From NCBI GenBank assembly GCA_008360975.2, contig VLJF02000840.1, positions 186,001-250,000 of the forward strand: a DNA stretch of 64,000 nucleotides, read 5' to 3'. Positions 6,943 to 57,661 of the stretch are shown here, one piece after another; position 1 is the first letter of the stretch; each line of letters opens with the position of its first letter. Source of the stretch: Lichenostomus cassidix (lineage: Eukaryota; Chordata; Aves; Passeriformes; Meliphagidae). Under the pieces are notes generated by a model that was not told the DNA's origin, searched no databases, and saw nothing but the letters and a program-made list of their open reading frames with translations. Both the position numbers and the translations under genes were made by a program.

Positions 6943-6969
6943 ATCTTAACTTTCAAGAGGAGGTCCATC

Positions 6970-13985: not shown

Positions 13986-14017
13986 TGACCGCGGGGCAGA
14001 GCCACTGCTCGGTATTT

Positions 14018-14490: not shown

Positions 14491-15969
14491 AAAGCTGCTC
14501 TTCTCAAGTCACCTCCAGTTCTCCATCCCAGCGCTGGAGGGAGGGGGGCAGGATTGTCCTCAGGTGTTCTGGACAGAGGGGGACAGTCAGGAGGGTCACA
14601 GGTGTTTCATCTGGAAGGTCTCATCCTCATCTTGGTTCCCAGCATTGAGGCCCTGCAGGGGGAGTGAGGGGTGGTGGTTATGGGAGGTTGGGGGGGTTTC
14701 TGTCACTCCTGTGGGGGCTTCTCACCCACAGAAGGGCCTTGGGGGTCTGAAAGATTGGAGGGGAAGGGGCTGCACCTTGGGGCTCCTGAAGGGGCACTGG
14801 GGGCTCCCAAACTGAAGAGGTGCTGTCAGGGGGACATAGAGGGGATGGGGCATTTCCCAAGCTGTGGCAACCCAGAGGACACAATGCCCCACTAGGGACA
14901 CTGGGGGTGGACAGAGCCTTTCCTAGACAGGGGATTCCAGGATGTGTCATCCCCAGAACAGGGAGTCCCCCGGACAGGACCCTCTTGGATGTGCCCCCAG
15001 GACTGAACCCTCCCCCCACTCCCCCATCAGACTCTCAGCACAAACAGCATCTTCCTTCAGCTGCAGGAAAGAGAAAGTGAAAATGCTGGGGGCCCAGTCG
15101 GACACCCCCCATCCTCCCCAGCCCCTGCCCCTCCCGGCACCCCATGCACCCCCTTTTTCCCATTCCTCGGGGTGCCCCCAACATGTGACTGGCTCAGGTG
15201 CTCTCTTGGGTCACTGAGCCAAGAACTGGTGGGGGGGGGAGTGTAGTGCACAGTTTAGGAGAGCAATGAAAAATAGTAATAAAGAGAGGAAAAAGCCCCG
15301 GGGTGGGGTGGCACAGAACCAGAGAACCATGGCAACCCCCTTCAGTGTGCCCCCTGGCCCTGAGCACCCTGGGGAGGGCTGCACTGGGCTCTGGGAAATC
15401 CCAAAATCTGAGGCATCCCGTGAAGGAGCTGCAACTCACGCCCACCTAGCTGCTCCCCGTGCCTGGAACCCCCATTTGCCAGGGACACTGAACCACTGGA
15501 TCACCCTTACTGTCCCCTCCCTGGGTACCCCCATCTCAGGACCTCCATTGTCCAGGACATGTCTCCTCTACATCCTATCCCATGGGTCTTGCATTCACCC
15601 AGGACCTCCCCTTCCCACAGGACCCCCAGTTTCCCCAGCAGCGCAGTCACAGGGACACCGATCCCATGACTCCAAATCCTCAGGGCCTACATTTCCCTTG
15701 GGCCCCCATGCCTTGGCATCTCTTCTCATGGGGACCCCCATTCCCCAGGAGCCGTATTAACTGTTACTTCCCCTCTTCAGCGCCCCCATTCACCTGAACA
15801 CTCATCCTCAGCTCCCCACTTTCCTTGAGCCCCCCATTCCCAGGACCCTGTGACCCACCATGGCCCACTATGGCCTCACTATTGCTGCACCACGGCCCCA
15901 CGATGGCCCCAGCATCTCTCCACCATGTCCCCAGCCTGTCCCTACCCTGCCCCCACCATGAGCCACCAA

Positions 15970-16067: not shown

Positions 16068-19000
16068 ATGGCCGGGGACACCATGATGGCCGAGGCGGTG
16101 GCATTGCTCCTGTGGGGTGAGTGCCCTGGGCACAGGGGTGACAACCCAGGGATGGCCCTGGTGAGGCAGAGAGCGGTGGGGAGGGGGCACAGGGGGGTTG
16201 CAGGATGCCCTGAGATCCCCAGTGCCAGCAGAGGCACTCCATGGGGCTTGACCCTGGTTTGACCTTGGTTCTGGGGTGGCTGTGGGGACAAGAACAGGTG
16301 GACAAGAATGGTGGGACAGGGAGAAGGGGACAAGCACCATGCAGATGGGCCATGGGGACAGGTGCCATCACAATGGGATCAAAGGCACAGGGCCATGGGG
16401 ATGTGGCAATGGGGACTGATGATGTGGCACTGGGGGATGACCGATGCATGGGTGGCTATGGCAATGACACATCCCCCAACCTCTCCACAACCACTGGGGA
16501 CTGTTTCCTAGCACTTTCCCAGAAGAACTGGTGCCCCCCACAGGGACAGTTTGGGAACCACAAACACACACCCCATCCCAGGGGCAGCCCTCCCCATAGG
16601 GCAACCCCCACCCAGCCCCTCTCCCTTCTGTCTTCCAGCCCAGACCCTCAGCCCTGCTGGTGAGTCCTCAGGCAGATGCCATGTCCCTGCCCTGCTGTCC
16701 CCAGCAACATGGTGGCCCTGGCTGGTGTCCTCTGTCACCAGCAGCTGCCCAGACCACCCAGCTCCTCGTAGAGCCCCCCTGGACACCAGCGGTGCTGTGG
16801 GACAGAGTGACACTGACCTGCCAGGGCTCAGGGACACCTAATGCCACCACCTGGTACAAGGATGGGAAGCGCTGGGGGAAGGAGGGAAGCGACAGCTTCC
16901 TTGTCACTGAGAGTGGCACCTACATGTGTGAGAGACCAGACATCAGGCTCAGCGACCCTGTGAACGTCTTGAATGGTGAGGGGGGAAATGGCGATGGGTG
17001 TTCCCCACGGGGCTCTGGCTGGGCTTCACTGTGTCTTGTGTCATATGACGAGAGCCCATGCCCTGCACAAGGGAACATGCCAGTACAGCCCTGTGCACAG
17101 CAGTGCATCCCCTGTCCCACAGATGAGCCGGTGCTGCAGGTGCCTGCACGGGCACAGCTGGAGGGGGACACGGTGACACTGCGCTGCCGGGGCTGGCGGA
17201 ACAGGTTGGTCACCGCGGTGAGATTCTACCACAATAAGAAATATCTGCGGGTGTCCCTCAGAAGGGCAGAGCTGTCCCTGCTCCCCCTGAAGATGCACCA
17301 TGGTGGCCACTACCACTGTGGGGGCTGGGTGGGCTCCAGGATATCACCGTTGTGGAAGGAGTCGGTGCCAGTGCCACTGACAGTACATGGTGAGCACCCC
17401 CACAGCTGGGACCCCAATACCCCGTGATATTGACTCCCACAGCCAAAATTCCCACACCACCTTCCCCATGCTGAGGGTCACAATTGTCCCCTCTTTTCCT
17501 TTCCAGAGCTCTTCTCGGTGCCGGAGCTGGAGCTGGAGGGTCCCCCTGAGCCCACTGAGGGATCCCCCCTGACTCTCAGCTGCCTCAGCACCCCCAGCCC
17601 CCTGCGGCCCCGAGCCCCCCTCCTGCACCTCTTCTACCGGGACGGGCAGTTGCTGGGGGGCCCGCAGGTGTCCCCGCAGCTCCTGCTGCCCGCCGTGGGG
17701 GTCTCCCACTCGGGCAGTTACAGCTGCGAGGTGCGCTCCGAGGGGGGGGCCGTGCGGAAGAGCAGCGCCCGGCTCCGCGTCACGGTGCGCAGTGAGTGCG
17801 GGGATGGGCACGGCAACCCCACAGCCTCCCCGGGTACCCCAGCCCTGCCTGGCGTGTCCCATCTCACCCGGACACCTTTTCCGGGTCCCCACATCACTGC
17901 CCTTTGCCCCATCATTCCTCCCACGGTGCCCTGCCTGGGTACCTCCATCACTTCCTGGGTCCATTAATCTCTTTTGCATCCCTCTCAGATTCCCTCATCC
18001 TTCACCGAGTCACCTCACCCCTTTCTGGGTCCACCCACCCTTCCCTGATGTCCCCCCCATGGTCCCCTGGTCCTCCTGTCACTGTCTGGGTCCCCACAGC
18101 CCTCTCTGGGTTCCCCCCATCCCTCTCCCCGTTTCCCCTCCTTGAATCTGCCATCTCTACCTGCAGTCCCTTTCCAAGCCTCCCCGAATCTCTGAGCCCC
18201 CTCTTCCAAACTGGGGTCCCCCACCCCGCTCTGAACCTCCCCATGACCCTCACTGTCCCCTGGTGTCCCCCTCTCACAGGGATCCCAGTATCAGGGGTGT
18301 CCCTGTCGGTGCAGCCTCCCAGGGGACAGGTGGCACTGGGTGACAGCCTGGTGCTGAGCTGCACGGTGGCTGCGGGGACAGGTCCCCTGTCCTTCTCCTG
18401 GCACCGGGAGGGCTCGGGGACACCGCTGGGCACTGGCCCCCGCCTGGAGCTTCGCCACGTTGGGGACAGTGACAGTGGCCACTACCAGTGCCAGGCCAGT
18501 GACGGGGACAGCGTGGCTGAAAGCCCCACACTGAATGTCACTGTCCTGGGTGAGCAGGACCCTCAGGCTTGGTGTGATCCCAAACGCGGCATCATCATTC
18601 CCTCCACCCCCCTCCCCCCACACCTAATGCCAGCCCCTCCCCCAGCCTCAGCCCCGTCTCTGTCCCCGCAGTGCCCGTGGCCAATGCCACCATCACCCCT
18701 GGCCCCCCGGCACTCCAGGTGCGCACAGGTGACCCTGTGACCCTGCGCTGCTCGGTGCAGGTGGGCTCAGCACCTGTCACCTTCAGCTGGCTGCACGATG
18801 GGCAGGAGGTGGCCCAGGGTCCCCTCCTAGAGCTTGGGGACATCGGTGTGGGACATTCTGGCACCTACCAATGCGTGGCCATCAACCAGCTGGATGAGCA
18901 CCGTGTGTTCCAGGCGCTCAGCCCAGAGCTGGCCCTGGAGGTGACACCGCAGGGACACTGGGGCACAGGTGGGGCACAGGTGGGGTCATATGGGGTCACT

Positions 19001-19758
19001 GGGGGGTGTGGGGGTGTATGGGGTCACTCCTCAAGTGAGTAGTGACCCTCATGACCCATCTGTCCCCCAGCAGTGGCTGTGAACGTCAGCAGGACCCTCC
19101 TGTTCCTGGTTCTACTCCTGGCTGTCATCGGGGGCTGTCACTGGTGGCACCGCCCGGGTGGGTGACAGTGGGGAGGTTGGGGGTCCTGGAGTGAGGGGAA
19201 ACCTCCAGAGTGTGGGGAGAGATGGGGCAGCACCCAGAGCTCCTGAGTTAGGGGAAACTGATCCCCAGTGACCTTGGCTGGGGTCCTGGGGGGGTTGGGG
19301 GGAATTTGGTGGGTCTTGGTTGTGCTCCAGGGGGCATCCCTGGGTGGCATTTGAGGAACATTGGGGTGGCACTGCGAGAGACTGGGGGGTTTAGGGAGCT
19401 CTTGGAGGGTTGTGCAAGGATGTTGGGGGTTCTGTCAGTGATTCTATGGAAGTTTGGGTGATGCCCCTCGCTGCCGTGCTTGAGGTTCTGGGACTCAGGG
19501 AGACGGGGAACCAGGGGGGTTGGGGGCACTATGGTGGTGCAGGAATTCTAGGCGTTCAGGTGTTCCTGGGGTCCAGGTGCGAATCAGGATCCAGTGGGAA
19601 TCGGGGCTGCAGAGGGGATTTAGGGTTCCCGTGAGGATTTGGGGTCCTGAGGATGGTTGGAGCTCCCAAGGTCCCACGAAGGTTCAGGGGTCTCAGGGAC
19701 CTCACAGTCACCTCCTGCCCTTTTCCTTGCAGGAGCCAGGGTGTCCCAGGACTGGTGA
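16068..19758 (+). CDS. FCRL-like putative activating receptor gene C (NxxR, no ITIM)
   Basis: Five Ig domains, 509 residues if read through the old tail donor. Exons: signal 16068-16116 and 16639-16659 (21 bp), D1 16745-16975, D2 17123-17389, D3 17507-17791, D4 18280-18549, D5 18672-18968, membrane 19074-19157, last exon 19733-19758. The membrane exon reads VAVNVSRTLLFLV, an Asn-x-x-Arg motif where inhibitory siblings have VAAGVSGSLLFLV. That motif is known from FcR-gamma-associating receptors of the leukocyte receptor complex and from Xenopus FCR-like proteins. The first tail exon is kept, but the two ITIM exons are deleted; the former splice donor now supplies the stop (TGG TGA). The cytoplasmic tail is about 15 residues. 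The D1 acceptor is CAGCAG rather than CACAG. Association with FcR-gamma is inference. Confidence 0.88.
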
Positions 19759-19849
19759 GGAGGGCCTCCGGCCATGACTCCCCATTCACCCTCCCAGCCC
19801 CAGGGGGGCACAGGAACCTTTTCCTTTTATTGGACCCGAACCGCAGGTT

Positions 19850-20112
19850 TGTGGCTAGCACAGGCCTTTCTCGTGAGAACATTCTGTTGTGTTTTATAAA
19901 CAAAGATAAAGTTTGGATGTTTTTTAAACAGTGTCTAAAGATTTGGACAGTTCAGGCCTGGCCAATCAGGCCTACGGGGAGGTTTCTGGCTGACCAATCT
20001 GGGTGACCTCTGAAAAGTCTATACATATGTTGGATTCAAATAATAAAGGGCTTTTTCTATGCTACGCTGGGAATCCGGGTTTTCCTTCTCTGCTAGCGGC
20101 TCAATAGCGACA
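19850..20112 (+). mobile_element. Solo LTR (263 bp) in gene C 3' region, 6-bp target duplication
   Basis: Starts TGTGGCTAGC and ends GCGACA, flanked on both sides by CAGGTT (19844-19849 and 20113-20118). Genes B and D lack it at the same place. It contains an AATAAA at 20042-20047. TG...CA ends plus a 6-bp duplication fit an alpharetrovirus/ERVK-like solo LTR. No internal viral sequence remains. Confidence 0.85.
20042..20047 (+). promoter_or_regulatory. AATAAA inside the gene C solo LTR
   Basis: Canonical poly(A) signal supplied by the LTR, 80 bases upstream of the unit's ancestral ATTAAA (20123-20128). Either could end gene C transcripts. Confidence 0.55.
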
Positions 20113-20307
20113 CAGGTTATTGATTAAACCGGGAGAAATGGGTTTTTTTTGTCCAGCTCTGTCTTTTCAGCTCGGGAAGGAGGAGGGTCCAGGTCAGGCT
20201 GTTGAGCAGATCCTTGTGGGATTTGCAGAATTTTTGGGGCTCTCTCAGTCCCTTGGGGAGGGTGACAAAATGATCAACCGGGGCATTTCTGGACTGGTTC
20301 CCTCGCA

Positions 20308-20560
20308 ACTGCCCCGAGAGCCCCGAGAGCCCCGGGACGGAGCTGGGGACAGCCTGAGGTGTCCCCCGAGCCCAGCCCAGCCCCGCCGCAGCCCTGCCCG
20401 GTGCCCCCCGGTGCCCAAAGCCCCGCAGCCGGCGCTCCCCGAGCGGCTCTGAGCCCCACAGCTGCTGCGGAGCCTCGGCCGGGCTCAGCCCTGGGGCGGG
20501 CGGGGGGCGCCGGGAGGATGGCCACTGTGGCCATCCAGCCGGGGTCACCCCCAGCCCCAG
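20308..20560. repeat. CpG-rich block, copy 2 (internally deleted)
   Basis: Matches 13550-13780 and 26765-26970, then jumps over the MALRVARL segment to GGCCATCCAGCCGGGG. The conserved short frame is therefore lost here. Confidence 0.6.
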
Positions 20561-20594
20561 CAAGGCTGCAAGGCAGAGCCACTGCTCCATATTT

Positions 20595-21066
20595 CCATAC
20601 TTTTCCTTCTCATCTGGTGGCTGCAGCCAGAAGCCAAACATTCTTTCTGGGAGCTTCCAAAGTGCTGCAGGTTTGAGCCAGGAAGGAGGAGGCTCCAGGT
20701 CAGGTTGTTGAGCAGATTGTTGTTGTCTTTGCAGGAGTTCTGGGGCTCTCTCAGTCCCTTGGCCAGAGGGACAAAATGATCAATTGCTGCATTTCCAGAC
20801 TGGTTCCCTCCCAGCTGCCCCTGCACTGTTGGTTTCCACCCAGCCCTGCTCTGAAAACCATCAAAGGCCCTCGCAGAGCCACTGCTTGAGCTCCAGCTGG
20901 TTTTTGTGCTTCTTGCAGAGCTGAGCAAACCACAGCCAGGCCTTTTTCCCCCACACAATTCTCACCTTTGAGCAGCTCTAAAGCTGTGAGAATCAAAGGG
21001 GGCCAAGGGGGCAGGTGGGAGCCTCAGGTGCTGGCTGCCCCTGGGGCTGGCCAGAGCAGGGCTGGC
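20595..21066 (+). repeat. Spacer block R, copy 4, and C-D spacer
   Basis: Block R upstream of gene D. The following 21070-22510 is almost identical to 27710-29160 upstream of gene E and holds only the common upstream sequence and the minisatellite. Confidence 0.75.
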
Positions 21067-22525
21067 CAATGCCCATCCCTGTGCAGTGGGGCTGTGCCAT
21101 GGCTGAGCTCCACACTTGGATGGGCACTGGCTGCAAGGAGGAGGAGTTTGGGAGCTCCTTCCTGCCTGGGGCTGCATTCCCAAGCTGCTCTTCCCAGCTC
21201 AGATCCTCCAGGAGAACAGCAATGTTGGAGAAGACTGGAACAGGTTTTCTCTCGAAACCCAATAAACCCAAAGTGTCCCAACCCCCAGGACAGAAACCCA
21301 TGCAGAGGATGGTGGAGAGCAGGAGAGGAATAGGGCAGCTCCCAACAGCTTCAGCCCACCCAGATTTTGGAAGTCTGATCCCTGCGTCAGCAATTTGAGG
21401 CCAAATCAGGCATTTCTAGGGAGAAAAAGCTGCATCTAGGATGTGTCCAGGTTCCCTCCAGAACCGCCATCCCCCAGGTGAGGACCCCCCCAGCCGGGAT
21501 GTGTCACCCCTGGGACAGGACCCTCCCTGGACATGTCACCCCCAGAACAGGGACTGCCCCGGACAGGATCCCCCTGGATGTGTCCCCCTGGACAGAACCT
21601 GCCCCCCCGTCTGATTCTCAGCACAAACAGCCACTTCCTTCTGCTGCAGGAAAGAGAAAGTGAAAGTGTTGGGGGCACAGCTGGATACCCCCATCCCTCA
21701 CAGCTCCCCCTCCCCTCTCTGCAGCCCCTGCACCCCCATTTTCCACCTGTTACCAGCTCAGGTGCTCCTCAGGACTGGGGAGTCAGGAAATGTAGGGGCA
21801 GTGTGTGTGTGTGAAAGTGAGGCAAATAAAGAAAATATAGAAATAGAGGAAAAAGACCCTGGGAGAGTGGGGCAAAGAACCAAAGCCCCCTGGGACTGCC
21901 CTGTGGTGTCCCCTCAATCTATGAGCACCCCGGGGGGGCTCTGCTGGGCCCTGGGTCACCACAAAATCTGAGGCAGCCAGTGAAGGAGCTGTGACCCATG
22001 TGCTCACCCAGCCACTGCCCTGGAACCTCCATTGCCCTGGGAACACAACCATGGGATCCCCATTGCCTTGGTCCCTCCATCCCTGGGACCACCATTCCAG
22101 GGCTCCCACTGCCCAGGGTCTCCATTTCCCAGGACCTTCCTTTGATCCATTCCCACGGGGACCTCCATTCCCCCACCACCCCCATCCCTGGGACCTCCAT
22201 CCCATGACCTGAGTTCCCTGGAGCCTGCTTTCCCCAGGGACCCCTACATATTTGGACCCCCATTCCCAGGCAACCCATCCCCTGTGACTCCCCCTCCTCA
22301 GGACTGCCATTCCTCTGGATCTCCATTCCCAGGAACTCCCCTCCCAGGAAATCCTGGGACCTTCCCAGGACCTCATTCCTGCCCCCAGTTTCCCCTGGAC
22401 ACAAACCCAGGCTCACCACATCTCCTGATCCCCCCAATCCTGGGCCCTTATTTTCCACCAGGTCCCACCAGGTTCCCAGCCTGCCCCCAGCCTGTCACCA
22501 CCCTGCCCCCAGCAAGGGCCACCTA

Positions 22526-22574
22526 CACGTGGGGACGAAATGTGAAATCACTTCCTTCCCCTTCATCCGAAGAG
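22526..22574 (+). promoter_or_regulatory. Putative promoter core of gene D
   Basis: CACGTG E-box and CACTTCCTTCCCCTTC Ets-like site; nearly identical to gene E's promoter, so D and E should be expressed in the same cells. Confidence 0.5.
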
Positions 22575-22614
22575 TCACCACCCAGGGGACAGCAGCATGT
22601 GACAGCCAGCCTGG

Positions 22615-25600
22615 ATGGCCGGGGACAGCGGGATGGCCGGGAAGGTGGCACTGCTCCTGTGGGGTGAGTTCCCTGGGCACAGGCCTGATGCACAGGGATG
22701 GGTCCTGGTGAGGCAGAGAGCGGTGGGGAGGGGGCACAGGGGGCTGTGGGGTCCTCTGAGTTCCCCAAAGCAAGCAGTGCTGCACCATGGTGTGACGGGG
22801 ATCATGGGGTGGCTGTGGGGACAGGAACAGGGGGATAGGAATGGGGGGACAGAAATGGGGGATAGGGAGAGGGGGACAAGTATATGGCAATAGGCACCTT
22901 GGCACAGCATCAGCTGTGGGCTCAGGGACAGGGGGACAGGGGGACAGGGGGACAGGGAGACAAGGGGACAAGCACCATACAGATGGGCATTGTGGAGGAG
23001 ATGCTGTGGGGCTGATGAGGGTGATCTCTGCCAGCATGGGATGTCTATAGAGTCACCATGCCCAGAGTGTCCACAGTGTCCCCATGTCCTGCCTCAGCCC
23101 GAGGTGGCTGTGATGTCTCTCTCTGTCCCTGAGATGTCTATGCCCCATGGGTGTTTGAACAGGGACAGTTTGGGGACAGCCCCCACTAGCATCCCCCAGG
23201 TGCTGCTGTCCCCACAGTGCCACCCCCACCCAGCCCCTCTCCCTTCTCCTTTCCAGCCCAGACCCTCAGCCTCACTGGTGAGTCCTCAGGGGATGCCATG
23301 TCCCTGCCCTGCTGTCCCCAGCCCCACAGTGGCCCTGGCAGGCTGGTGTCCTCTGTCACCCACAGGTGCCCAGACCACCCAGCTCCTCGTGGATCCCCCC
23401 TGGACGCCAGCAGTGCTTTGGGACCGAGTGACACTGACCTGCCAGGGCTCAGGGACTCCTGGTGCCATCACTTGGTTCAAGAATAGGCGGAACTGGGAGC
23501 AGAAGAAAACTGACCGTTTCCTTGTCACCCAGAGTGGCACCTACAAGTGTGAGAGACCTGGCACCGGGGTCAGCAACCCTGTGAGCATCTTAGATGGTGA
23601 GTGGGGATGGGGTCTGGGTGGGCTGCACTCCGTGGGTGGTCACACACTCCTCATGTGATGAAAGCCTGTCTTCTGCTCATGGTGACATTCCAGTGCATCC
23701 CAGTTCATCCCAGTGCACACCAGTGCATCTCATTGTGATGGGACAGCCCTGGTGCATCCAGGTGCCATGGAATTTCCCCTGGTGTCCCCTGGGTCCCTGG
23801 GCACACTGCAGCTCAGAACCCCTCAGTGCCATGGGGACTCTGCTGTCCCACAGACCGGCTGGTGCTGCAGGTGTCAGCAGGGACACTGCTGGAGGGGGAC
23901 ACGGTGACACTGCGCTGCCGAGGCTGGCGGGACAACCTGGTCACTGAGGTGCGATTTTACCGTGAGAAGAAGGAATTGTGGTGGCCTCGTGGTGGGACCG
24001 AGCTGTCCCTGTCCCCCCTGCAGCTGCACCACAGCGGCCGCTACCACTGCACGGCCAAGGTGGGCTCCAAAGAGTCAGCGTTGGAGAAGTCAGCGCCAGT
24101 GACAGTGACAGTGCATGGTGAGAACCCCACAGCTGGGACCCTGATACCCCAACACCCCCACAGATCCTTCCCAGCAGACTTGGAGTCACAAAACACCCAC
24201 TTTTGTCTCCTTCCCAGAGCTCTTCTCGGTGCCGGTGCTGGAGCTGGAGGGTCCCCCTGAGCCCACCGAGGGGTCCCCCCTGAATCTCAGCTGCCTCAGC
24301 ACCCCCAGCCCCCTGCGGCCCCGAGCCCCCCTCCTGCACCTCTTCTACCGGGACGGGCAGTTGCTGGGGGGCCCGCAGGGGTCCCCGCAGCTCCTGCTGC
24401 CCGCCGTGGGGGTCTCCCACTCGGGCAGTTACAGCTGCGAGGTGCGCTCCGAGGGGGGGGCCGTGCGGAAGAGCAGCGCCCGGCTCCGCGTCACGGTGCG
24501 CAGTGAGTGCGGGGATGGGCACGGCAACCCCCACAGCCTCCCCGGGTACCCCAACCCTGCCTGAGTACCCCCATTCCTACCAGACACCCTTGCATTGCAT
24601 CTCCCTATTCCTCACTGGGCTTTCCCTGTCACTGCCCTGGTTCCTTCATCTTTTCCCAGGTGTCACCCCATGTCCTCCCATCATTGTCCCATGTCCCTGC
24701 ATTCCCCCCTGGGTCTTCCCACTTCTCTCTGAGGTTCCTCCATGGTCACCACATCCCACCATCCCCATCTGGTTCTCCGCATCTTTCACTGGTGTCCCCC
24801 ACATCCATCTCCAGGTCTCCACTCCATGAATCCTCCATCCCTCCCTGGGTTCCCTTCCTCTCCTTTCCAAACTGCTCAACAATCTCTCGGCTCCCTTCTT
24901 TATCACTGTGGTACCCCCACTCCTCTCTGACCTTCCCTACCTCCCTTGGTCCCTCACTGTTCCCTCTTTCGTCCACCCCTACCCAGGACCCCCAACCCAC
25001 CCATCTCCCCCCACAGGGGTCTCACTCTTGGAGGTGTCCCTGTCAGTGCAGCCCCCCGGGGGACAGGTGGCACTGGGTGACAGCCTGATGCTGAGCTGCA
25101 CGGTGGCCACAGGGACAGGTCCCCTGTCCTTCTCGTGGCACCGGGAAGGCTTGGCCACACCTCTGGGCACTGGCCCCCACCTGGAGCTGCACAACGTTGG
25201 GGACAATGACAGCGGTCACTACCAGTGCCGGGCCAGTGATGGGAAAAGCGTGGCTGAGAGCCCCACACTGAATGTCACTGTTCTGGGTGAGTGGGACCCT
25301 CGGGCTGGGGGTGATCCCACCCATGATATTGTCATCTCACCTCTCCCCCTCCCCCCACACGGCGTTCCAGCCCCTCCCCCAGCCTCAGCCCCGTCTCTGT
25401 CCCCGCAGTGCCCGTGGCCAATGCCACCATCACCCCTGGCCCCCCGGCACTCCAGGTGCACACAGGTGACCCCGTGACCCTGCGCTGCTCGGTGCAGGTG
25501 GGCTCAGCACCTGTCACCTTCACCTGGCTGCACGATGGGCGGGACGTGGCCCAGGGTCCCGTCCTGGAGCTTGGGGACATCGATGTGGGACATTCTGGCA

Positions 25601-26479
25601 CCTACCAGTGCGTGGCCACCAACCAGCTGGATGAGCACCGTGTGTTCCGGGCGCTCAGCTCAGAGCTGGCCCTGGAGGTGACACCGCAGGGACACTGGGG
25701 CACAGGTGGGGTCATATGGGGTCACTGGGTGGTGTAAGACTTCTGAGGAGAGTGGTGACCCTCATGTCCCCTCTGTCCCCCTGTAGTGGCTGTGAATGTC
25801 GGCAGGACCCTCCTGTTCCTGGTTCTGCTCCTGGCTGTCATCGGGGGCTGTCACTTGTGGCACCGCCCGGGTGGGTGACAGTGGGGGGGTTGGGGGTCCT
25901 GGAGTGAGGGGAAACCCCGAGAGTGTGGGGAGAGATGGGGCAGCACCCAGAGCTCCTGAGCTGGGGGAAACTGATCCCCAGTGACCTTGGCTGGGGTTCA
26001 TAGGGGGACTGGGGGGAAATTTGATGGGTCTTGGTTGTGCTCCAGGGGGTATCTCTGGGTGGCATCTGAGGAATATTGGGGTGGCACTGGGAGATCCTGG
26101 GGGGTTTTAGGGAGCTCTTGGAGGTTCGTGCAGGGATGCTGGGGGTTCTTTCTTGGGTCCTGTGGGAGTTTCGTGGCTGCCCCTCCCTGCCCGTCCCTTC
26201 AGGGCTCAGGAGCTCAGGATGTTGGGGGCATTGGGGGTGTTGGGGACACTGCGGTGGTGCAGAACTTCATGGGGTTCAGGGGTTCCTGGCGTCCAGGGGG
26301 GAATCAGGGTTCAGTGGGAATCAGGGCTGCAGTGGGGATTTGGCGTTCCCGAGGGGATTTGTGGGTCCCGTGGGTGGTTGGAGCTCCCGAGGGCTCAGGA
26401 AGGTTCAGGGGTCTCGGGGACCCCACAGTCACCTCCTCCCCTTTTCCTTGCAGGAGCCTGGAAGCCTCAGGACAGGTGA
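22615..26479 (+). CDS. FCRL-like putative activating receptor gene D (E-like ectodomain, C-like tail)
   Basis: 508 residues. Exons: signal 22615-22663 and 23257-23277 (21 bp), D1 23366-23596, D2 23854-24117, D3 24218-24502, D4 25017-25286, D5 25409-25705, membrane 25787-25870, last exon 26454-26479. Signal, D1, D2, D3, D4 and their introns are nearly identical to inhibitory gene E; from the D4-D5 intron (about 25330) onward it follows gene C. Membrane segment VAVNVGRTLLFLV carries Asn-x-x-Arg. As in C, both ITIM exons are deleted and the old donor provides the stop (AGG TGA), leaving a short tail. Differences from E in the binding part cluster in D2 (ELWWPRGGTE versus ELWGSHGGTK; CTAKVGSKES versus CKAKVGSKQS). 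Likely the activating partner of E; signalling via FcR-gamma is inferred. Confidence 0.9.
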
Positions 26480-26575
26480 GGAGGGGGCTCTGGCCATGAC
26501 TCCCCATTCACCCTCCCAGCCCCAGGGGGCACAAGACCCTTTTCCATGTTATTGGACCCAAAACGCTGTTTTTTT

Positions 26576-26581
26576 ATTAAA
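26576..26581 (+). promoter_or_regulatory. Poly(A) signal of gene D (ATTAAA)
   Basis: ATTAAA 97 bases after the stop; the 3' UTR is short because the deletion that removed the ITIM exons ended inside it. Confidence 0.65.
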
Positions 26582-26764
26582 GCGGCAGAAATGGGGTTTG
26601 TTTTTTCGGCTCTGTCTGTTCAGCTCGGGAAGGAGGAGGGTCCAGGTCAGGCTGTTGAGCAGATCCTTGTAGTATTTGCAGAATTTTTGGGGCTCTCTCA
26701 GTCCCTTGGGGAGGGTGACAAAATGACCAATTGGGGCATTTCTGGACTGGTTCCCTCGCAGCTG

Positions 26765-27225
26765 CACCGAGAGCCCCAAGAGCCCCGGGACGGAGCCGGG
26801 GACAGCCTGAGGTATCCCCCGAGCCCAGCCCAGCCCCGCCGCAGCCCTGCCCGGTGCCCCCCGGTGCCCAAAGCCCCGCAGCCGGCGCTCCCCGAGCGGC
26901 TCTGAGCCCCGCAGCTGCTGCGGAGCCTCGGCCGGGCTCAGCCCTGGGGCGGGCGGGGGGCGCCGGGAGGGAGGGAGCGGGAGGCTGGGGGAGAGCAGGG
27001 AGCCCGGCAGGAGCCGCCGGGCCTGCGGGAGCGGAGTGCTGGGCTCGGTCACCGGGGCAGGTGGCGCTGCCATGGCGCTGCGAGTGGCGCGACTGTCCCG
27101 GGCTGCGGCAGCGACGGTGGCCATGTGTCCGGAGCGGCTGGGACAGCGTGTCCGGAGCCACTGTCGCCATCCAGCCGGGGTCACCCCCAGCCCCAGCGCG
27201 GCCGCGGGGCAGAGCCGCTGCTGGG
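26765..27225. repeat. CpG-rich block, copy 3
   Basis: Near-identical to copy 1 (13480-13985). The MALRVARLSRAAAA frame begins at 27072 and stays open to 27347 without indels relative to copy 1. Confidence 0.6.
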
Positions 27226-27227
27226 TA

Positions 27228-27706
27228 TTTCCACACTTTTCCCTCATGTCTGGTGGCCACAGCCAGAAACCAAACATTCTTTCTGGGAGCTTCCAAAGGG
27301 CTGCAGGTTTGAGCCAGAAAGGAGGAGGATCCAGGTCAGGTTGTTGAGCAGATTGTTGTTGTCTTTGCAGGAGTTCTGGGGCTCTCTCAGTCCCTTGGCC
27401 AGAGGGACAAAATGATCAATTGCTGCATTTCCGGACTGGTTCCCTCCCAGCTGCCCCTGCACTGTTGGTTTCCACCCAGCCCTGCTCTGAAAACCATCAA
27501 AGGCCCTCACAGAGCCACTGCTTGAGCTCCAGTTGGTTTCTGTGCTTCTTGCAGGGCTGAGCAAACCACAGCCAGGCCTTTTTCCCCCACACAATTCTCA
27601 TCTTTGAGCAGCTCTAAAGCTGTGAGAATCAAAGGGGGCCAAGGGGGCAGGTGGGAGCCTCAGGTGCTGGCTGCCCCTGGGGCTGGCCAGAGCAGGGCTG
27701 GCCAAT
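27228..27706 (+). repeat. Spacer block R, copy 5, and D-E spacer
   Basis: Block R upstream of gene E. The rest of the spacer to 29170 is the near-identical duplicate of the gene D upstream region. No other gene seen. Confidence 0.75.
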
Positions 27707-29171
27707 GCCCATCCCTGTGCAGTGGGGCTGTGTCATGGCTGAGCTCCACACTTGGATGGGCACTGGCTGCAAGGAGGAGGAGTTTGGGAGCTCCTTCCTG
27801 CCTGGGGCTGCATTCCCAAGCTGCTCTTCCAGGCTCAGATCCTCCAGGTGAACAGCAATGTTGGAGAAGACTGGAACAGGTTTTCTCCCAAAACCCAATA
27901 AACCCAACTTGTCCCAACCCCCAGGACAGAAACCCATGCAGAGGATGGTGGAGAGCAGGAGAGGAATAGGGCAGCCCCCAACAGCTTCAGGCCACCCAGA
28001 TTTGGGAAGTCCGATCCCTGCGTCAGCAATTTGAGGCCAAATCAGGCATTTCCAGGGGGAAAAATCTACAGTTTTCCATCCCATCTAGAATGTGTCCAGG
28101 TTCCCTCCAGAACCGCCATCCCCCAGGTGAGGACCCCCCCAGCCGGGATGTGTCACCCCTGGGACAGGACCCTCCCTGGACATGTCACCCCCAGAACAGG
28201 GACTGCCCCGGACAGGACCCCCCTGGATGTGTCCCCCCTGGACAGAACCTGCCCCCCCGTCTGATTCTCAGCACAAACAGCCTCTTCCTTCTGCTGCAGG
28301 AAAGACAAAGTGAAAGTGTTGGAGGCACAGCCTGACACCTCCATCCCCCACAGCTCCCCCCCTCCCTGCAGCCCCTGCACCCCCATTTTCCACCTGTTAC
28401 CAGCTCAGGTGCTCCCCAGGACTGGGGAGTCAGGAAATGCAGGGGGCAGTGTGTGTGTGAAAGTGCAGAAAATAAAGAAAATATAGAAATAGAGAAAAAA
28501 GACACTGAAAGAGTGAGGCAAAGAACCAAAGCCCCCTGGGACTGCCCTGTGGTGTCCCCTCAATCTATGAGCACCCCGGGGGGGCTGTGCTGGGCCCTGG
28601 GTCACCACAAAATCTGAGGTAGCCAGTGAAGGAGCTGTGACCCATGTGCTCACCCAGCCACTGCCCTGGAACCTCCATTGCCCTGGGAACACAACCATGG
28701 GATCCCCATTGCCTTGGTCCCTCCATCCCTGGGACCACCATTCCAGGGCTCCCACTGCCCAGGGTCTCCATTTCCCAGGACCTTCCTTTGATCCATTCCC
28801 ACGGGGACCTCCATTCCCCCACCACCCCCATCCCTGGGACCTCCATCCCATGACCTGAGTTCCCTGGAGCCTGCTTTCCCCAGGGACCCCTACACATTTG
28901 GACCCCCATTCCCAGGCAACCCATCCCCTGTGACTCCCCCTCCTCAGGACTCCCATTCCTCTGGATCTCCATTCCCAGGAACTCCCCTCCCAGGAAATCC
29001 TGGGACCTTCCCAGGACCTCATTCCTGCCCCCAGTTTCCCCTGGACACAAACCCAGGCTCACCACATCTCCTGATCCCCGCAATCCTGGGCCCTTATTTT
29101 CCACCAGGTCCCACCAGGTCCCCAGCCTGCCCCCAGCCTGTCACCACCCTGCCCCCAGCAAGGGCCACCTA

Positions 29172-29220
29172 CACGTGGGGACGAAATGTGAAATCGCTTC
29201 CTTCCCCTTCATCCGAAGAG
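29172..29220 (+). promoter_or_regulatory. Putative promoter core of gene E
   Basis: CACGTG E-box followed by CGCTTCCTTCCCCTTC, 40-90 bases before the ATG. Confidence 0.5.
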
Positions 29221-29260
29221 TCACCACCCAGGGGACAGCAGCATGTGACAGCCAGCCTGG

Positions 29261-32200
29261 ATGGCCGGGGACACCGGGATGGCCGGGAAGGTGGCACTGC
29301 TCCTGTGGGGTGAGTACCCTGGGCACAGGCCTGATGCACAGGGATGGGTCCTGGTGAGGCAGAGAGCGGTGGGGAGGGGGCACAGGGGGCTGTGGGGTCC
29401 TCTGAGTTCCCCAATGCAAGCAGTGCCACTCCATGGTGTGACGGGGATCATGGGGTGGCTGTGGGGACAGGAACAGGGGGATAGGAATGGGGGGACAGAA
29501 ATGGGGAATAGGGATAGGGGGACAAGTATATGGCAATAGGCACCTTGGCACAGCATCAGCTGTGGGCTCAGGGACAGGGGGACAGGGGGACAGGGGGACA
29601 GGGGGACAGGGGGACAAGGGGACAAGCACCATGCAGATGGGCATTGTGGAGGAGATGCTGTGGGGCTGATGAGGGTGATCTCTGCCAGCATGGGATGTCT
29701 ATAGAGTCGCCATGCCCAGAGTGTCCAGAGTGTCCCCATGTCCTGCCTCAACCCAGGGTGGCTGTGATGTCTCTCTCTGTCCCTGAGATGTCTATGCCCC
29801 ATGGGTGTTTGAACAGGGACAGTTTGGGGACAGCCCCCACTAGCATCCCCCAGGTGCTGCTGTCCCCACAGTGCCACCCCCACCCAGATCCTCTCCCTTC
29901 TCCCTTCCAGCCCAGACCCTCAGCCTCGCTGGTGAGTCCTCAGGGGATGCCATGTCCCTGCCCTGCTGTCTCCAGCCCCACAGTGGCCCTGGCAGGCTGG
30001 TGTCCCCTGTCACCCACAGGTGCCCAGACCCCCCAGCTCCTCGTGGATCCCCCCTGGACGCCAGCAGTGCTGTGGGACCGAGTGACACTGACCTGCCAGG
30101 GCTCAGGGACTCCTGGTGCCATCACCTGGTACAAGAATAGGCGGAACTGGGAGCAGAAGAAAACTGACCATTTCCTTGTCACCCAGAGTGGCACCTACAA
30201 GTGTGAGAGACCTGGCACCGGGGTCAGCAACCCTGTGAGCATCTTAGATGGTGAGTGGGGATGGGGTCTGGGTGGGCTGCACTCCGTGGGTGGTCACACA
30301 CTCCTCATGTGATGAAAGCCTGTCTTCTGCTCATGGTGACATTCCAGTGCATCCCAGTTCATCCCAGTGCACACCAGTGCATCTCATTGTGATGGGACAG
30401 CCCTGGTGCATCCAGGTGCCATGGGATTTCCCCTGGTGTCCCCTGGGTCCCTGGGCACACTGCAGCTCAGAACCCCTCAGTGCCATGGGGACTCTGCTGT
30501 CCCACAGACCGGCTGGTGCTGCAGGTGTCAGCAGGGACACTGCTGGAGGGGGACACGGTGACACTGCGCTGCCGGGGCTGGCAGGACAACCTGGTCACTG
30601 AGGTGCGATTTTACCGTGAGAAGAAGGAATTGTGGGGGTCCCATGGTGGGACCAAGCTGTCCCTGTCCTCCCTGAACCTGCACCACAGCGGCCGCTACCA
30701 CTGCAAGGCCAAGGTGGGCTCCAAACAGTCAGCGTTCGAGAAGTCAGCGCCAGTGACAGTGACAGTGCATGGTGAGCACCCCACAGCTGGGACCCTGATA
30801 CCCCAACACCCCCACAGATCCTTCCCAGCAGACTTGGAGTCACAAAACACCCACTTGTGTCTCCTTCCCAGAGCTCTTCTCGGTGCCGGTGCTGGAGCTG
30901 GAGGGTCCCCCCGAGCCCACCGAGGGGTCCCCCCTGAATCTCAGCTGCCTCAGCACCCCCAGCCCCCTGCGGCCCCGAGCCCCCCTCCTGCACCTCTTCT
31001 ACCGGGACGGGCAGTTGCTGGGGGGCCCGCAGGGGTCCCCGCAGCTCCTGCTGCCCGCCGTGGGGGTCTCCCACTCGGGCAGTTACAGCTGCGAGGTGCG
31101 CTCCGAGGGGGGGGCCGTGCGGAAGAGCAGCGCCCGGCTCCGCGTCACGGTGCGCAGTGAGTGCGGGGATGGGCACGGCAACCCCCACAGCCTCCCCGGG
31201 TACCCCAGCCCTGTCTGAGTACCCCCATTCCTACCAGACACCCTTCCAAATCTCCCTATTCCTCACTGGGCTCTCCCTATCACTGCCCTGGTCCCTTCAT
31301 CCTTTCCCAGGTGTCACCCAATGTCCTCCCATCATTGTCCCAGGTCCCTGCATTCCCCCCTGGGTCCTCCCACTTCTCTCTGAGATTCCTCCATGGTCAC
31401 CACATCCCACCATCCCCATCTGGTTCTCCACATCTTTCACTGGTGTCCCCCACATCCATCTCCAGGTCTCCCCTCCATGAATCCTCCATCCCTCCCTGGG
31501 TTCCCTTCCTCTCCTTTCCAAACTGCTCAACAATCTCTCGGCTCCCTTCTTTATCACTGTGGTACCCCCACTCCTCTCTGACCTTCCCTACCTCCCTTGG
31601 TCCCTCACTGTTCCCTGTGTCTCCCACCCCTACCCAGGACCCCCAACCCACCCATCTCCCCCCACAGGGGTCTCACTCTTGGAGGTGTCCCTGTCGGCAC
31701 AGCCCCCCCGGGGACAGGTGGCACTGGGTGACAGCCTGATGCTGAGCTGCATGGTGGCCACAGGGACAGGTCCCCTGTCCTTCTCCTGGCACCGGGAAGG
31801 CTTGGCCACACCTCTGGGCACTGGCCCCCACCTGGAGCTGCACAACGTTGGGGACAATGACAGCGGCCACTACCAGTGCCGGGCCAGTGATGGGAAAAGC
31901 GTGGCTGAGAGCCCCACACTGAATGTCACTGTTCTGGGTGAGTGGGACCCTCGGGCTGGGGGTGACTCCACCCATGCTATTGTCACCCTACCATCCCTGT
32001 CAACCCACACCGTGTTCCAGCCCCTCCCCCAGCCTCAGCCCCGTCTCTGTCCCCGCAGTGCCCGTGGCCAATGCCACCATCACCCCTGGCCCCCCGGCAC
32101 TCCAGGTGCACACAGGTGACCCCGTGACCCTGCGCTGCTCGGTGCAGGTGGGCTCAGCACCTGTCACCTTCACCTGGCTGTACAACGGGAAGGAGGTGGC

Positions 32201-33331
32201 CCAGGGTCCCCTCCTGGAGCTTGGGGACATCGGTGTGGGACATTCTGGCATCTACCAGTGCGTGGCCACCAACCAGCTGGATGAGCACCATGTGTTCCGG
32301 GCGCTCAGCCCAGAGCTGGCCCTGGAGGTGACACTGCAGGGACACTGGGGCACAGGTGGGGTCATATGGGGTCCCTGTAGGGGTCTGAGACCCCTGGGTC
32401 TTTGGTGACCCTGGTTTGTCCCCGCTCTGTCCCTGGCAGTGACACAGAGGGAACAGAGCACAGGAGGGGAACTCCTGATGTCACTGGCATTGCAGCAGCT
32501 GTGGGGTGATGGGTGACCCTGATGTGTCCCTCTCTGTCCCCAGCAGTGGCCGCAGGAGTCAGTGGTTCCCTGTTGTTCCTGGTCCTGCTCGTGGGTGTCA
32601 TCATGGCCTGGCACCGGTGGCACCGCCTGGGTGGGTGACAATGGGGATCCCAGTGAGCTGTGGGAAGTCCCACTTAAGACGGCAGGAGCTGAGCCCCAAG
32701 TGACCTTGTTTTGGGGTTCTGTGAGGTTTGATGAGGTGTTGGAGGCTCATGTACGGATGTTGGAGGTTCTTTCAGAGATCCTGGGAGGCTTTGGAGAATT
32801 CCCCCTGCTGGGTTTGGGGTTCTGTGGGCTCAGGGGTTGTTCAGGGGTTCTGGGGGGAATTGAGGGTCCAATGGAGGTTCAGGATTTCTGTGTATGATCA
32901 GGGGCCCTGGGTACCCCACAGTAACCTCCTCTCTTTCCTTTCCAGCTGCCAGGAAGCACCAGGACAGGTGAGTGGGAGGCTCCAGCCACTATGAACCTTT
33001 TACCCCAACCCCTATCACCTCCCATCCCCTCCCACACATCCCCTTTATCCCCTCAGGGTCCCCCCGGAGCCCCCAGCTCCCCCAGAGGAGGGGGAGGTGC
33101 TGTACACCCATGTCATGAGCACCAAGCGAAAGGGGGGTGAGTATCAGAGTGGCACACACAGGGACATGTCACCCACTGGTGTCACCCCTCACCCAGATCC
33201 TACAGCCAGTGTCTCTCGCAGGGCCCCCCTGTGCCACTGTCCCCCAGGAAACCCAGGTGACCTACGCAGAGCTGCCAGGAACCCATGGGCGACCGCGGGA
33301 ACCAAGTGACATCTACGAGAACATGAAGTGA
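29261..33331 (+). CDS. FCRL-like inhibitory receptor gene E (five Ig domains, ITIMs)
   Basis: Complete, 570 residues. Exons: signal 29261-29309 and 29911-29931 (21 bp), D1 30020-30250, D2 30508-30771, D3 30872-31156, D4 31668-31937, D5 32059-32355, membrane 32547-32630, tail 32946-32967, 33057-33136, 33222-33331. Membrane segment VAAGVSGSLLFLVLLVGV is uncharged, followed by a basic AWHRWHRLG stop-transfer. Tail tyrosines: VLYTHV and VTYAEL (ITIM type) and DIYENM, which fits both YxxM (PI3K p85) and YxN (Grb2) consensus. The ectodomain is shared with gene D, so E is its likely inhibitory partner. Start is the upstream ATG of two in frame (MAGDTGMAGKVALLLW). The best preserved unit in the window. 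Confidence 0.93.
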
Positions 33332-33408
33332 CACTGGAGGGACTGGAGAGCACTGGCAGAAACTGGAGGACCCAGTGCTCTGCTGTTAGACCCAAAATGC
33401 AGCTATAG

Positions 33409-33414
33409 ATTAAA
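33409..33414 (+). promoter_or_regulatory. Poly(A) signal of gene E (ATTAAA)
   Basis: ATTAAA 78 bases after the stop. In genes F and H the same position reads GTTAAA. Confidence 0.65.
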
Positions 33415-34733
33415 CTGGCAGAAGTGGTGTTTCTTTGTTCAGCTCTCTCAGGCTTTAGCAATGGGATTCTCCAATTTCGGGCTGCCACTAAAAACCAGGG
33501 GCTGCTGCCCCTCACCCTCCCAGTGGAGGCACAAAAGGCAAAGATCCCAAAGGGCTGAGAGAAGAACAATTTCCTGCAAACAGCAATGACAGAAGAAAAC
33601 CAACAGCAACAGCAACAAGATTCAGAATCAGAAGGGTCAGAAAAGGAATGATTTCCAGGGAAAGCCCCCGACAAGGAACAAACCCCAGACGCTGCCCCCA
33701 GCATGATTCCCCTGCCAGGAGGAACCTGGCAGGGTCCTGGACCTTCATTGCTTTGATGGCCAAAGCAGCCTTCAGGAGGTTCTGGATTCTCTTCTCCCCT
33801 GTCTCCAAACCCTGCTTGATCCCCTGCTTTGCTCTGGTCAGGGTCAGATTGGGCAGGGCCAGCTCGACTGGGAGCTCCTCTGGTGCTGAGGGACCAGGGG
33901 GCATTTGCTGCAGGTGTGTCCCAAGGGCTGAAGCTCCCAGCACCCCTTGCTCTCTGCATGTCCTTTAACAGCCCATTCCAGTGTGGGATTTTTCCCGAGG
34001 CCGGGGAACCACAGGCAATGGGATCCATCCCTGCAGGGCCAGGTTCTTTGTCCCCAGTGTCTGTGAGGTTCTTTGGAGAAGGAGTTCCAGTGTTGGATTC
34101 AATTCTTTCTGCAGGGCTGTGTTGCCATAAGACTTCCTTTCCCAGGCCCAGCACAATGTTCCCAGGGGCACAGGGAGCCTTTCCAGCCATCCAGGGCTTG
34201 CTTCTCTCCCCAGGAGCCCTCAGGTTTGGGGTCTGTGATCCAGTCAATCTGCCAGGCCTGCCCAGACTGGGATTTCATCCCTCATCCTCCATCCCACAGG
34301 GGCTTGACCTGCCTGTGCCCTGTGTGATCACAGCACATTTCCCTTTCCTGGAGTGATGGTGTCCATGGGGAAATCCACATCAGCGCCAGGATGTGTGGCT
34401 GAGACTTTCCCTTTACTCACCTAGCCCATCCCTGGCAGTGTGGGCATTTGAAAGAGCTGAGTTTAAGTGCCAATCCCTTCTGAGGTGGCTCCAAGCCCTT
34501 CCTGAGCTGTCAGGATCTCTTGTTCTGTTGGGCTGGGACATGGCTCAGGTGGCAGCTGCCATTGTGCTCTGAGTGCTGTGACTGTCACTGGCTGTGGGGA
34601 CTGACAGTGGCAATGTGTCCAAAGCGACTGTGATAGAGTGTCCCAATTTGCCACGGCAATGACCCCAACAGCTCTCAGAACTCACAGGATGCCCTGGAAA
34701 AAGTGTGGGAAAGCAAAGGGTTTGAAGGGTTTG
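33415..34733. other. Gene E 3' flank; conserved hydrophobic frame on minus strand, no gene recognised
   Basis: Contains the empty LTR target CAGGGG (33496-33501) that is filled in F and H. On the minus strand (33943-33512) an open frame includes a hydrophobic stretch (LTLLILNLVAVAVGFLLSLL) that is kept in the F and H flanks at about 43740-43900 and 55370-55540, although adjoining sequence has indels. 33950-34733 shows nothing recognisable. Confidence 0.4.
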
Positions 34734-36599: not shown

Positions 36600-36728
36600 T
36601 TCCTCCTGGTCCTTATCTCAACCCAGGAAACTTTCGTTCAATTTTCTCTCCCCGTCTGACTGTGCAGGGCAGTGAGAGAGCAGCTTTGGTGGGTGCAGAG
36701 CATCCGGCCACTGTCAGCCCATGGCAAG
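36600..36728 (+). mobile_element. LTR end fragment
   Basis: CCTTATCTCAACCC...TCTCTCCCC...GCAGCTTTGGTGGG resembles the 3' end of an avian LTR in + orientation. It abuts spacer block R. 36368-36600 shows nothing recognisable. Confidence 0.35.
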
Positions 36729-36734
36729 ACAGGA

Positions 36735-37118
36735 AGGAGGAGGGTCCAGGTCAGGTTGTTGAGCAGATTGTTGTTGTCTTTGCAGGAGTTCTGGGGCTCT
36801 CTCAGTCCCTTGGCCAGAGGGACAAAATGATCAATTGCTGCATTTCCGGACTGGTTCCCTCACAGCTGCCCCTGCACGGTTGGTTTCCACCCAGCCCTGC
36901 TCTGAAAACCATCAAAGGCCCTCACAGAGCCACTGCTTGAGCTCCAATTGGTTTCTGTGCTTCTTGCAGGGCTGAGCAAACCACAGCCAGGCCTTTTTCC
37001 CCCACACAATTCTCACCTTTGAGCAGCTCTAAAGCTGTGAGAATCAAAGGGGGCCAAGGGGGCAGGTGGGAGCCTCAGGTGCTGGCTGCCCCTGGGGCTG
37101 GCCAGAGCAGGGCTGGCC
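36735..37118 (+). repeat. Spacer block R, copy 6
   Basis: Block R upstream of gene F, starting directly after the LTR fragment; its left part is missing compared with the other copies. Confidence 0.75.
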
Positions 37119-37325
37119 AATGCCCATCCCTGTGCAGTGGGGCTGTGCCATGGCTGAGCCCCACACTTGGATGGACAGGAGTCCCCAGGCTGTGCCACCC
37201 CTGGGACAGCCACCCCCCCAGGAAGGTGCAGGGACACTTCCAGAACTGCCCTCCCCCAGGACAGGATCCTCCTGTCCAGGATGTGTCACCCCCTGGACTG
37301 GATTCCCCCAGGTCATGTCACCCCC

Positions 37326-37746: not shown

Positions 37747-38691
37747 CCCAGAACAGGGATCTCCCTGGACAGGATCCCCCTGGATGTGTCCCCCAGGACT
37801 GACCCCACCCCCCCGTCTGACTCTCAGTGTAAAGAGCCTCTTCTGTCTGCTGAAGGAAAGAGAAAGTGAAAGTGTTGGGGACACAGCCGGACACCCCCAT
37901 CCCCCACAGCCCTCCAAACCTCCCTGCAGCCCCCTCACTGCCGTCCTTCCTCCCCGGGCTTCCCCCAACCTGTTACCTGCTCAGGTGCTCCCTAGGATCA
38001 CGGAGCCATGAACTGGGAGGGGACATGTTTACAAAGTTGAGGAAAAAGGAAAAAAGTAAAAATAAAGAGAGGGAAAAGTCCCAGTGGGGGAAGCACAGAC
38101 CCAGAGCACCATGGGAGCCCCCTGGTGTTCCCCACAGACCATGAACATCATCAGGGTCTGTGCTTTTGTCTGGGTCACCCTGAAATCTGAGGCACCCAGT
38201 GCAGGAGCTGTGACCCACATGCCCACCCAGCCACTGCCCATCCCTGGGACCCCCAATCCCCTGGGAACCCAACTATGGGACCTCATTCTCTAGGTCCCCC
38301 TCCTGGTGACCCCCATCCCTGCATGCCCATTTCCCAGAACCTCCATTGCCCAGCATTGCCCTCCCCTTGATCCCATCCCATGGGCTCCACAGTCCCCCAG
38401 GACTCCCCATAGCAGGGCCCACATCACATCACCCCAAATCCCTGGGGTCCAAGCACCCCTGGGACCCCAATCCCGTTTCCCCTTCACCCTTGGGGACCCC
38501 ATTCACCAAGATCCCATCCCCTTTGTCTCCCCTTCCTGAGAAGCCCCATTCCCCAGGGATCCCATTTCTGCCCCTCCCCGTTCCTATGGAAATCCATCCT
38601 TAGCTCCCCACATCCCCTGAGCCCCCCAGTCCCTCCATGTCCCTCTGTGTCGCCAGCCTGTCACCCACCCTGCCCCCACCAAGGGCCACCT

Positions 38692-38737
38692 ACATGTGGG
38701 TGATGTGACCTCGCTTCCTTCCTCTTTGGCCAAAGAG
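38692..38737 (+). promoter_or_regulatory. Putative promoter core of gene F
   Basis: Ets-like CGCTTCCTTCCTCTTTGG conserved; the E-box is changed to CATGTG in F and H (CACGTG elsewhere). Confidence 0.45.
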
Positions 38738-38822
38738 CCACCACCCAGGGGACAGGTGGCCCCAGCAGCGTGTGACAGTCAGCCTGGATGGCCAGCGACA
38801 CCGGGATGGCCAGCACACCGGG

Positions 38823-43735: not shown

Positions 43736-43908
43736 CAGGGGCTGCTGCCCCTTCCCTTCCAGTGGAGGCACAAAAGGCAAAGATCCCAAAGGGCTGAGAG
43801 AAGAACAATTTCCTGCAAACAGCAATGACAGAAGAAAACCAACGGCAACAGCAACAAGATTCAGAATCTGAAGGGTCAGAAAAGGAACAATTTCCAGGGA
43901 AAGCCCCT

Positions 43909-57660: not shown

Positions 57661-57661
57661 T

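Follow-up and report, generated by a model that had tools for sequence, protein, structure and literature searches.

A 64,000-nucleotide stretch of the Lichenostomus cassidix genome (Passeriformes; Meliphagidae; assembly GCA_008360975.2, contig VLJF02000840.1, positions 186,001 to 250,000 of the forward strand), here called the window, contains nine Fc receptor-like (FCRL-type) units: A (-, partial), B (+), C (+), D (+), E (+), F (+), G (-), F' (+), and G' (-). This report concerns the neighboring genes D and E, which resemble each other over most of their length and end differently, and gene C, which resembles D at its 3' end. All three are predicted as intact models (503 amino acids for C, 502 for D, and 564 for E) with AG/GT exon edges and phase-1 immunoglobulin (Ig) exons (Table 1). 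The best PDB match to the whole D protein is human FCRL5 (9loc; E = 2.5e-69), and matches to FCRL4 (9mbz; 3.9e-52) and FcgammaRI (8din; 4.1e-33) were also found. The Ig domains of these three proteins are homologous by sequence to those of D and E; they are the closest solved relatives, and on this comparison D and E are members of the FcR/FCRL family. The two-exon signal peptide with a 21-base second exon, a family rule described in PMC2413239, is present here as well, and the 21-base exon was found in all eight units whose 5' part lies inside the window. A database search returned 586 matches; most of the best 120 of the 586 were named Fc receptor-like, and the best full-length matches were about 75% identical among the matches listed. 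The birds behind these entries are passerines.

D and E combine similar extracellular regions with different signaling ends. Domains D1 to D4 differ at 16 amino acids. Beyond them, E has an uncharged membrane span followed by three tyrosine motifs, VLYTHV, VTYAEL, and DIYENM, the first two of which fit the consensus of the immunoreceptor tyrosine-based inhibitory motif (ITIM; L/VxYxxV/S/I/L, PMC3601082) and are putative ITIMs. D has a C-type end, with an NxxR span, a predicted 8-residue tail, and no ITIM exons. The membrane exons of D and E differ with a nonsynonymous divergence (dN) of 0.33 over 27 codons, and the TGA stop codon of D sits inside a GTGAGG that serves as a splice donor in E, so that D may conceivably splice to a further exon. 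In Xenopus, association with FcR gamma is ascribed to NxxR spans (PMC2413239), and an NxxR span (NVGR) with a predicted short tail makes D a candidate for this class. The classical span motif of activating Fc receptors, (M/L)Fxx(D/N)TxL, was not seen by eye in the C or D spans, which carry NxxR there. Near-identical ectodomains on an NxxR end and an ITIM end form the arrangement expected of paired receptors, and the sequence-only reading of this DNA, which preceded the present analysis, had described D and E in these terms. D would associate with the FcR gamma chain through its membrane arginine and activate; E, once phosphorylated, would recruit SHP phosphatases, as is stated for ITIMs of the chicken CHIR receptors in PMC3601082, and inhibit. 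The two may share a ligand or recognize similar ones, possibly immunoglobulin or a pathogen decoy. We consider it probable that D and E are neighboring passerine FCRL genes that form a paired receptor, with a shared ectodomain, opposite signaling ends, and a mosaic origin.

Table 1. Predicted exons of genes D and E and related features of the window (positions in the window)
Feature	Position	Strand	Remarks
Gene D, whole model	22633-26479	+	502 aa, FCRL-type
Gene D, signal-peptide exon 1	22633-22663	+	31 bases from ATG; predicted from ATG and GT donor
Gene D, signal-peptide exon 2	23257-23277	+	21 bases; AG and GT edges
Gene D, Ig exons D1, D2, D3 (23366-24502)	23366-23596, 23854-24117, 24218-24502	+	Phase 1; AG/GT edges
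Gene D, Ig exon D4	25017-25286	+	Last clearly E-like exon; 263/270 identical to E
Gene D, exon D5	25409-25705	+	Inside switch zone
Gene D, membrane exon	25787-25870	+	NxxR (NVGR); 80/84 bases identical to C
Gene D, predicted last coding exon	26454-26479	+	8-residue tail; collinear with C
GC-rich block after D	26570-26970	not assigned	Like 20117-20517 after C; 380/401 identical
D stretch near-identical to E (27157-31980)	20521-25330	+	BLAST 20521-25779 vs 27157-32433, 95.9%; trees
Switch zone	25310-25706	+	D5 exon with the end of the intron before it; 22 E-type and 15 C-type informative sites
Gene E, whole model	29279-33331	+	564 aa, FCRL-type
Gene E, signal and D1-D5 exons	29279-29309, 29911-29931, 30020-30250, 30508-30771, 30872-31156, 31668-31937, 32059-32355	+	
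Gene E, membrane exon	32547-32630	+	Span without charged residue (translation)
Gene E, cytoplasmic exons	32946-32967, 33057-33136, 33222-33331	+	VLYTHV in the second; VTYAEL and DIYENM in the third
Gene C	16086-19758	+	Intact, 503 aa; NxxR (NVSR), 8-residue tail; nearest relative of the D 3' end within the window

By its pattern of similarity, D is a mosaic of related genes. In 100-base steps, its identity to E is 86.9 to 100% in every step of 21400-25699 and 40.7 to 75.8% from 25700; its identity to C is 47 to 93% before D5, but 99 to 100% in the D3 exon, and 72.7 to 99% from 25700. This is the sliding-window check that the sequence-only reading had proposed, and it shows that the switch is real. 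Informative sites, at which D agrees with only one of E or C (n = 1343), were 802 E-type and 36 C-type in 21400-25310, 15 and 8 in 25310-25410, 7 and 7 in the D5 exon (25410-25706), and 50 and 418 in 25706-26980. The top switch score was 371, compared with 23 at most in 20,000 site shuffles, a test that assumes independent sites. Trees of eight genes per segment grouped D with E at 100 in three segments (the signal intron, D1-D2, and the D2-D3 intron to D4) and grouped C with D at 100 from the end of D5 to the first tail exon; the D5 exon tree did not settle the gene grouping. The E-like signal weakens at 25310-25350, and D is C-like from 25706. Because the D5 exon is nearly alike in all paralogues, the switch occupies some 400 bases (25310-25706) rather than the point near 25330 that had been proposed for it.

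The 5' similarity of D to E, from the signal exons through D4 with the introns between, is thus as described before, with one qualification upstream. The D-E match there is present, and the promoter that had been placed in it is putative. Its first part is also not special to the two genes: 20521-21072 upstream of D matches the sequence preceding C at 95.1%, and the stretches of roughly 500 bases that precede B, C, D, E, and F (7397-7945, 13944-14495, 20521-21072, 27157-27762, and 36727-37177) are 93 to 98% alike while the gene bodies are not. At the 3' end, the features ascribed to C were all found in D: the short D5-membrane intron, the NxxR membrane exon (NVGR in D, NVSR in C), and the deletion of the ITIM exons. 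D 26441-26513 aligns with E 32933-33005 and D 26535-26616 with E 33369-33449, so that 33057-33331 is skipped; C, which is collinear with D there, lacks the two ITIM exons at an identical junction, and this shared deletion backs the grouping of C with D. The 3' flanking block of D likewise resembles that of C. Two differences lie nearby: about 270 bases past gene C (~19847-20116), perhaps an inserted repeat, are without a counterpart past D, and D is without about 186 bases of a GC-rich stretch found upstream of E and C (20517-20521 versus 26971-27156).

The two halves of D appear to differ in age. The noncoding difference between D and E, from 20521 to the D3-D4 intron, is 115/3657 (3.1%), and that between D and C, over the D5-membrane intron, the membrane-tail intron, and the last exon and 3' end to 26566, is 119/768 (15.5%), five times as high. 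The D4-D5 intron, part of the switch zone, and the GC-rich block past the genes (94.8%) were kept out of these sums. Had one crossover joined E and C with no conversion afterward, the two values should be close, so either the tail of D predates its E-like head or it came from another donor. A better fit than one crossover is given by conversion between D and E over an older tail of the C type, or by a C-like gene beyond the window as the donor. An older C-like activating gene may have had its 5' part replaced by that of E (or E may have taken that of D) after C and D split, an order suggested by the unequal ages of the two halves. Exon D5 is a likely spot for such exchanges to end, being nearly alike in all paralogues and adjoining the signaling exons.

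The sequence-only reading had instead spoken of a freshly made pair, from an unequal crossover or conversion between an E-like and a C-like gene; a fresh, one-step hybrid of E and the present C is not supported. Such a hybrid would come from one recent unequal crossover that turned the order C-E into C-D-E. The observed gene order is the predicted one, and the tail of D and the block after it resemble those of C; we nevertheless regard such an event as unlikely, since 15.5% against 3.1% would require later homogenization of D and E and the ~270 bases after the 3' end of C are not in D. The same two values bear on the quality of the assembly. The cluster is repetitive, and a 500-N gap at 49061, flanked by copies that are 95 to 96% alike and may be two haplotypes, makes a D assembled from reads of other gene copies conceivable. 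A tail about 15% from C and a head 3% from E are not those two genes joined, however, and a misjoin of C and E, which had been named earlier as the outcome that would undo the hybrid, was rejected because the D tail is too diverged. The N run at 49061-49560 is the sole one in the window, 1-49060 having none; the frame and splice edges of D are intact, and a pair of wrentit (Chamaea fasciata) entries looks similar. An artifact of this kind is very improbable.

Two points weigh against our reading of the pair. F joins D and E at 99 in the first 5' segment but in neither of the other two, and its grouping with E in the 3' segment reaches only 38, so conversion may have run either way; the 10 residue differences in D2, discussed below, may mean that the ligands of D and E already differ. 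The first point leaves room for E rather than D to be the mosaic, a gene that took the 5' part of D and kept its inhibitory tail. The same pair results either way, and two of three 5' segments do not join D/E to F, the weak 3' neighbor of E; the grouping in the first segment, set against that 38, weakly favors E as the native owner, and we judge a mosaic E rather unlikely. Nor do we think it likely that D serves as a decoy or is decaying, rather than acting as a functional partner. Its branch is longer than that of E in all three 5' segments, and D1 position 37 is F in D and Y in E and in 102 of 102 other sequences; its 502-amino-acid frame and splice edges are nevertheless intact, and its NxxR exon is conserved. 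A paired receptor of mosaic origin remains our preferred account of D and E.

Divergence within this putative pair is concentrated in one domain. Ten of the 13 amino acid differences in D1-D3 lie in D2 and none in D3; D4 adds 3. In D2, 11 changes are nonsynonymous and 2 synonymous. Counting the 11 in about 192 sites against 5 silent changes in about 426 (D2 synonymous sites plus the two flanking introns) gives a Fisher p of 0.0019, in a test picked post hoc. The D2 divergence may reflect drifting specificity, which we offer as a lead only. Some of the differing positions (102, 120-122, 143, and 150) are variable across about 100 passerine sequences, and at positions 126, 131, and 133 the residue of D is the usual one and that of E is rare. 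The FCRL5-IgG contact set comprised 17 residues and a glycan site, as given in PMC13131648. None of the 13 D1-D3 differences fell on these residues or the glycan site, and 2 lay within two residues of a contact, on a map made rough by distant alignment in which contacts D99 and S177 fall in gaps. Altered Fc binding between D and E is thus not supported by this mapping.

Among the paralogues of the window (D-E left out), silent divergence is 0.01 to 0.10 in D3 and D5 versus 0.2 to 0.5 in D1, D2, and D4. Islands of near-identity match the D3 and D5 exons of B, C, D, and E (for D5 also F), and the introns of D and C differ by about 20 to 45%. Across species, median activating-inhibitory identities within/between species were 89.2/79.6 for D3, 89.2/84.0 for D5, 80.9/76.2 for D4, 78.9/75.7 for D1, and 64.5/63.5 for D2. 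By these comparisons, concerted change is clear for D3 and suggestive for D5, whose excess is only little above that of D4 and weighs against D5 as a hinge. Because the cross-species signal of D5 is only suggestive, such a role rests mainly on the window and on where pairs part.

Pairs of this kind were sought among public passerine proteins, typed by span and tail motifs; window units were typed by eye. Of 142 proteins and 8 window units, 145 yielded the D1-D2 region, and the comparisons drew on 104 (43 activating, 60 inhibitory, and 1 untyped). D and E, 92.2% identical in D1-D2, are the closest of 79 within-species activating/inhibitory comparisons and the sole one at 90% or more, a level reached by 12/131 same-type comparisons. 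A D1-D2 tree built on 103 distinct rows, of which 95 were typed public sequences, 7 were typed window units, and 1 was untyped, needed 27 changes of end type, at least 15 of them forced by well-supported branches; shuffled labels gave a mean of about 32.5, and 12 to 15 of 500 shuffles were as low. Public gene models come from automatic prediction, and fusions among them inflate the counts in this tree and in the next. In a stricter set (88 rows, public models of 350 to 650 amino acids, three long-branch rows removed, quick tree), 19 changes were needed, at least 9 forced, compared with a shuffled mean of 28.0 and 0/500 as low. On these trees, end type follows descent more closely than chance would give, but it has switched on many occasions.

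The clearest second pair is in Chamaea, P0045 (ITIM) and P0089 (NxxR, ending in QDR like D); the wrentit is also the closest match to the last 48 residues of D (86%), followed by Sylvia borin (80%). P0045 and P0089 are identical at 114/120, 112/120, and 89/101 positions in three successive blocks and part at the end of D5; their N termini agree less (20/41), where the models differ, and D1-D2 is 87.6% identical. Melospiza georgiana P0053/P0037 is a similar, looser pair (87.7%). Comparisons of Agelaius phoeniceus P0003 with P0028, P0048, P0054, and P0056 (84 to 89.6%) were not counted as evidence, since P0003 is a fused model; it was kept in the 103-row tree and falls outside the length limit of the 88-row set. 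NxxR spans are alike across species (median 88.9%, 41/41 activating proteins) and 53.8% identical to inhibitory spans, which were detected in 46/55 inhibitory proteins. Several NxxR proteins retain ITIM relics with the tyrosine replaced, by N in P0094, P0099, P0114, and P0129 and by D in P0110; the relic is VTNAEL in P0094 and P0099. C and D lost these exons. Similar activating/inhibitory pairs seem, from these protein models, to have arisen more than once in songbirds. The description of D and E as a clean example is qualified by these other pairs and by the D2 differences.

How inhibitory receptors gain activating partners is often deduced from pairs that are already old. In D and E, both halves can be read, along with the switch zone and the shared deletion by which the tail was disarmed; because end types are scattered over the passerine tree, it also becomes measurable how often and where exchanges occur. 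We know of no NxxR partner with the same ectodomain for human FCRL5, FCRL4, or FcgammaRI. Several described systems are nevertheless similar. The Xenopus XFL genes (PMC2413239) are of the FcR family, include paired members with similar ectodomains, and have either an NxxR span with a short or no tail or an uncharged span with a YxxV/L/I tail, the classes being intermingled in the genome. In XFL, however, the NxxR span and tail share one exon, whereas D and C have a separate predicted tail exon and deleted ITIM exons, and a fraction of XFL genes fit a 30/21-base signal rule, compared with 31/21 as counted in the window. Primate Siglec-11 and Siglec-16 (PMC5701461) are likewise an inhibitory/activating pair, with ectodomains kept alike by repeated gene conversion, but belong to the Siglec family and bind sialic acid ligands. 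Chicken CHIR and turkey TILR (PMC3601082) are bird receptors with a charged span and short tail or an uncharged span and ITIM tail; they differ from D and E in belonging to the leukocyte receptor complex (LRC) family and having one or two Ig domains. D and E, with five Ig exons and best PDB matches to FCRL and FcgammaR, fall outside CHIR/LRC.

We found no account of passerine FCRL pairs in the open-licence literature, judged from the titles and abstract openings of the best matches. The kind of system is known from the Xenopus NxxR/ITIM pairs and the conversion-kept Siglec pair, and its passerine setting appears new within the literature searched. The genes described here suggest that songbirds carry a paired FCRL system. 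Chicken has one or two FcR-related genes (PMC2413239, PMC4016189), and CHIR was not found in zebra finch or duck by its describers (PMC3601082). It is a speculative and rather doubtful extension that the expanded FCRL cluster is the main paired-receptor system of passerines, replacing galliform CHIR, with D5 as a standing recombination hinge at which signaling ends are swapped repeatedly onto diversified ectodomains, and with D2 then free to diverge as a variable domain that is perhaps ligand facing.

The remainder of the window holds further units of the cluster. F and G recur as F' and G' at 95 to 96% identity (37968-49060 versus 49601-59772) on either side of the 500-N gap, which interrupts unit G; this repeat may be two haplotypes in tandem rather than a real duplication. 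Exon D4 of G' (60330-60602, -) has an in-frame stop, that of F' (52411-52679, +) a frame change, and F and F' gave no match to D3 (40302-40787). The F and F' tails (42464-42571) contain ATYVEL and DIYE, a VLYTHV-type exon was not seen in them, and both units were typed as inhibitory by eye. Between units A and B, a long simple repeat at ~6840-6950 reads KKERKKER.

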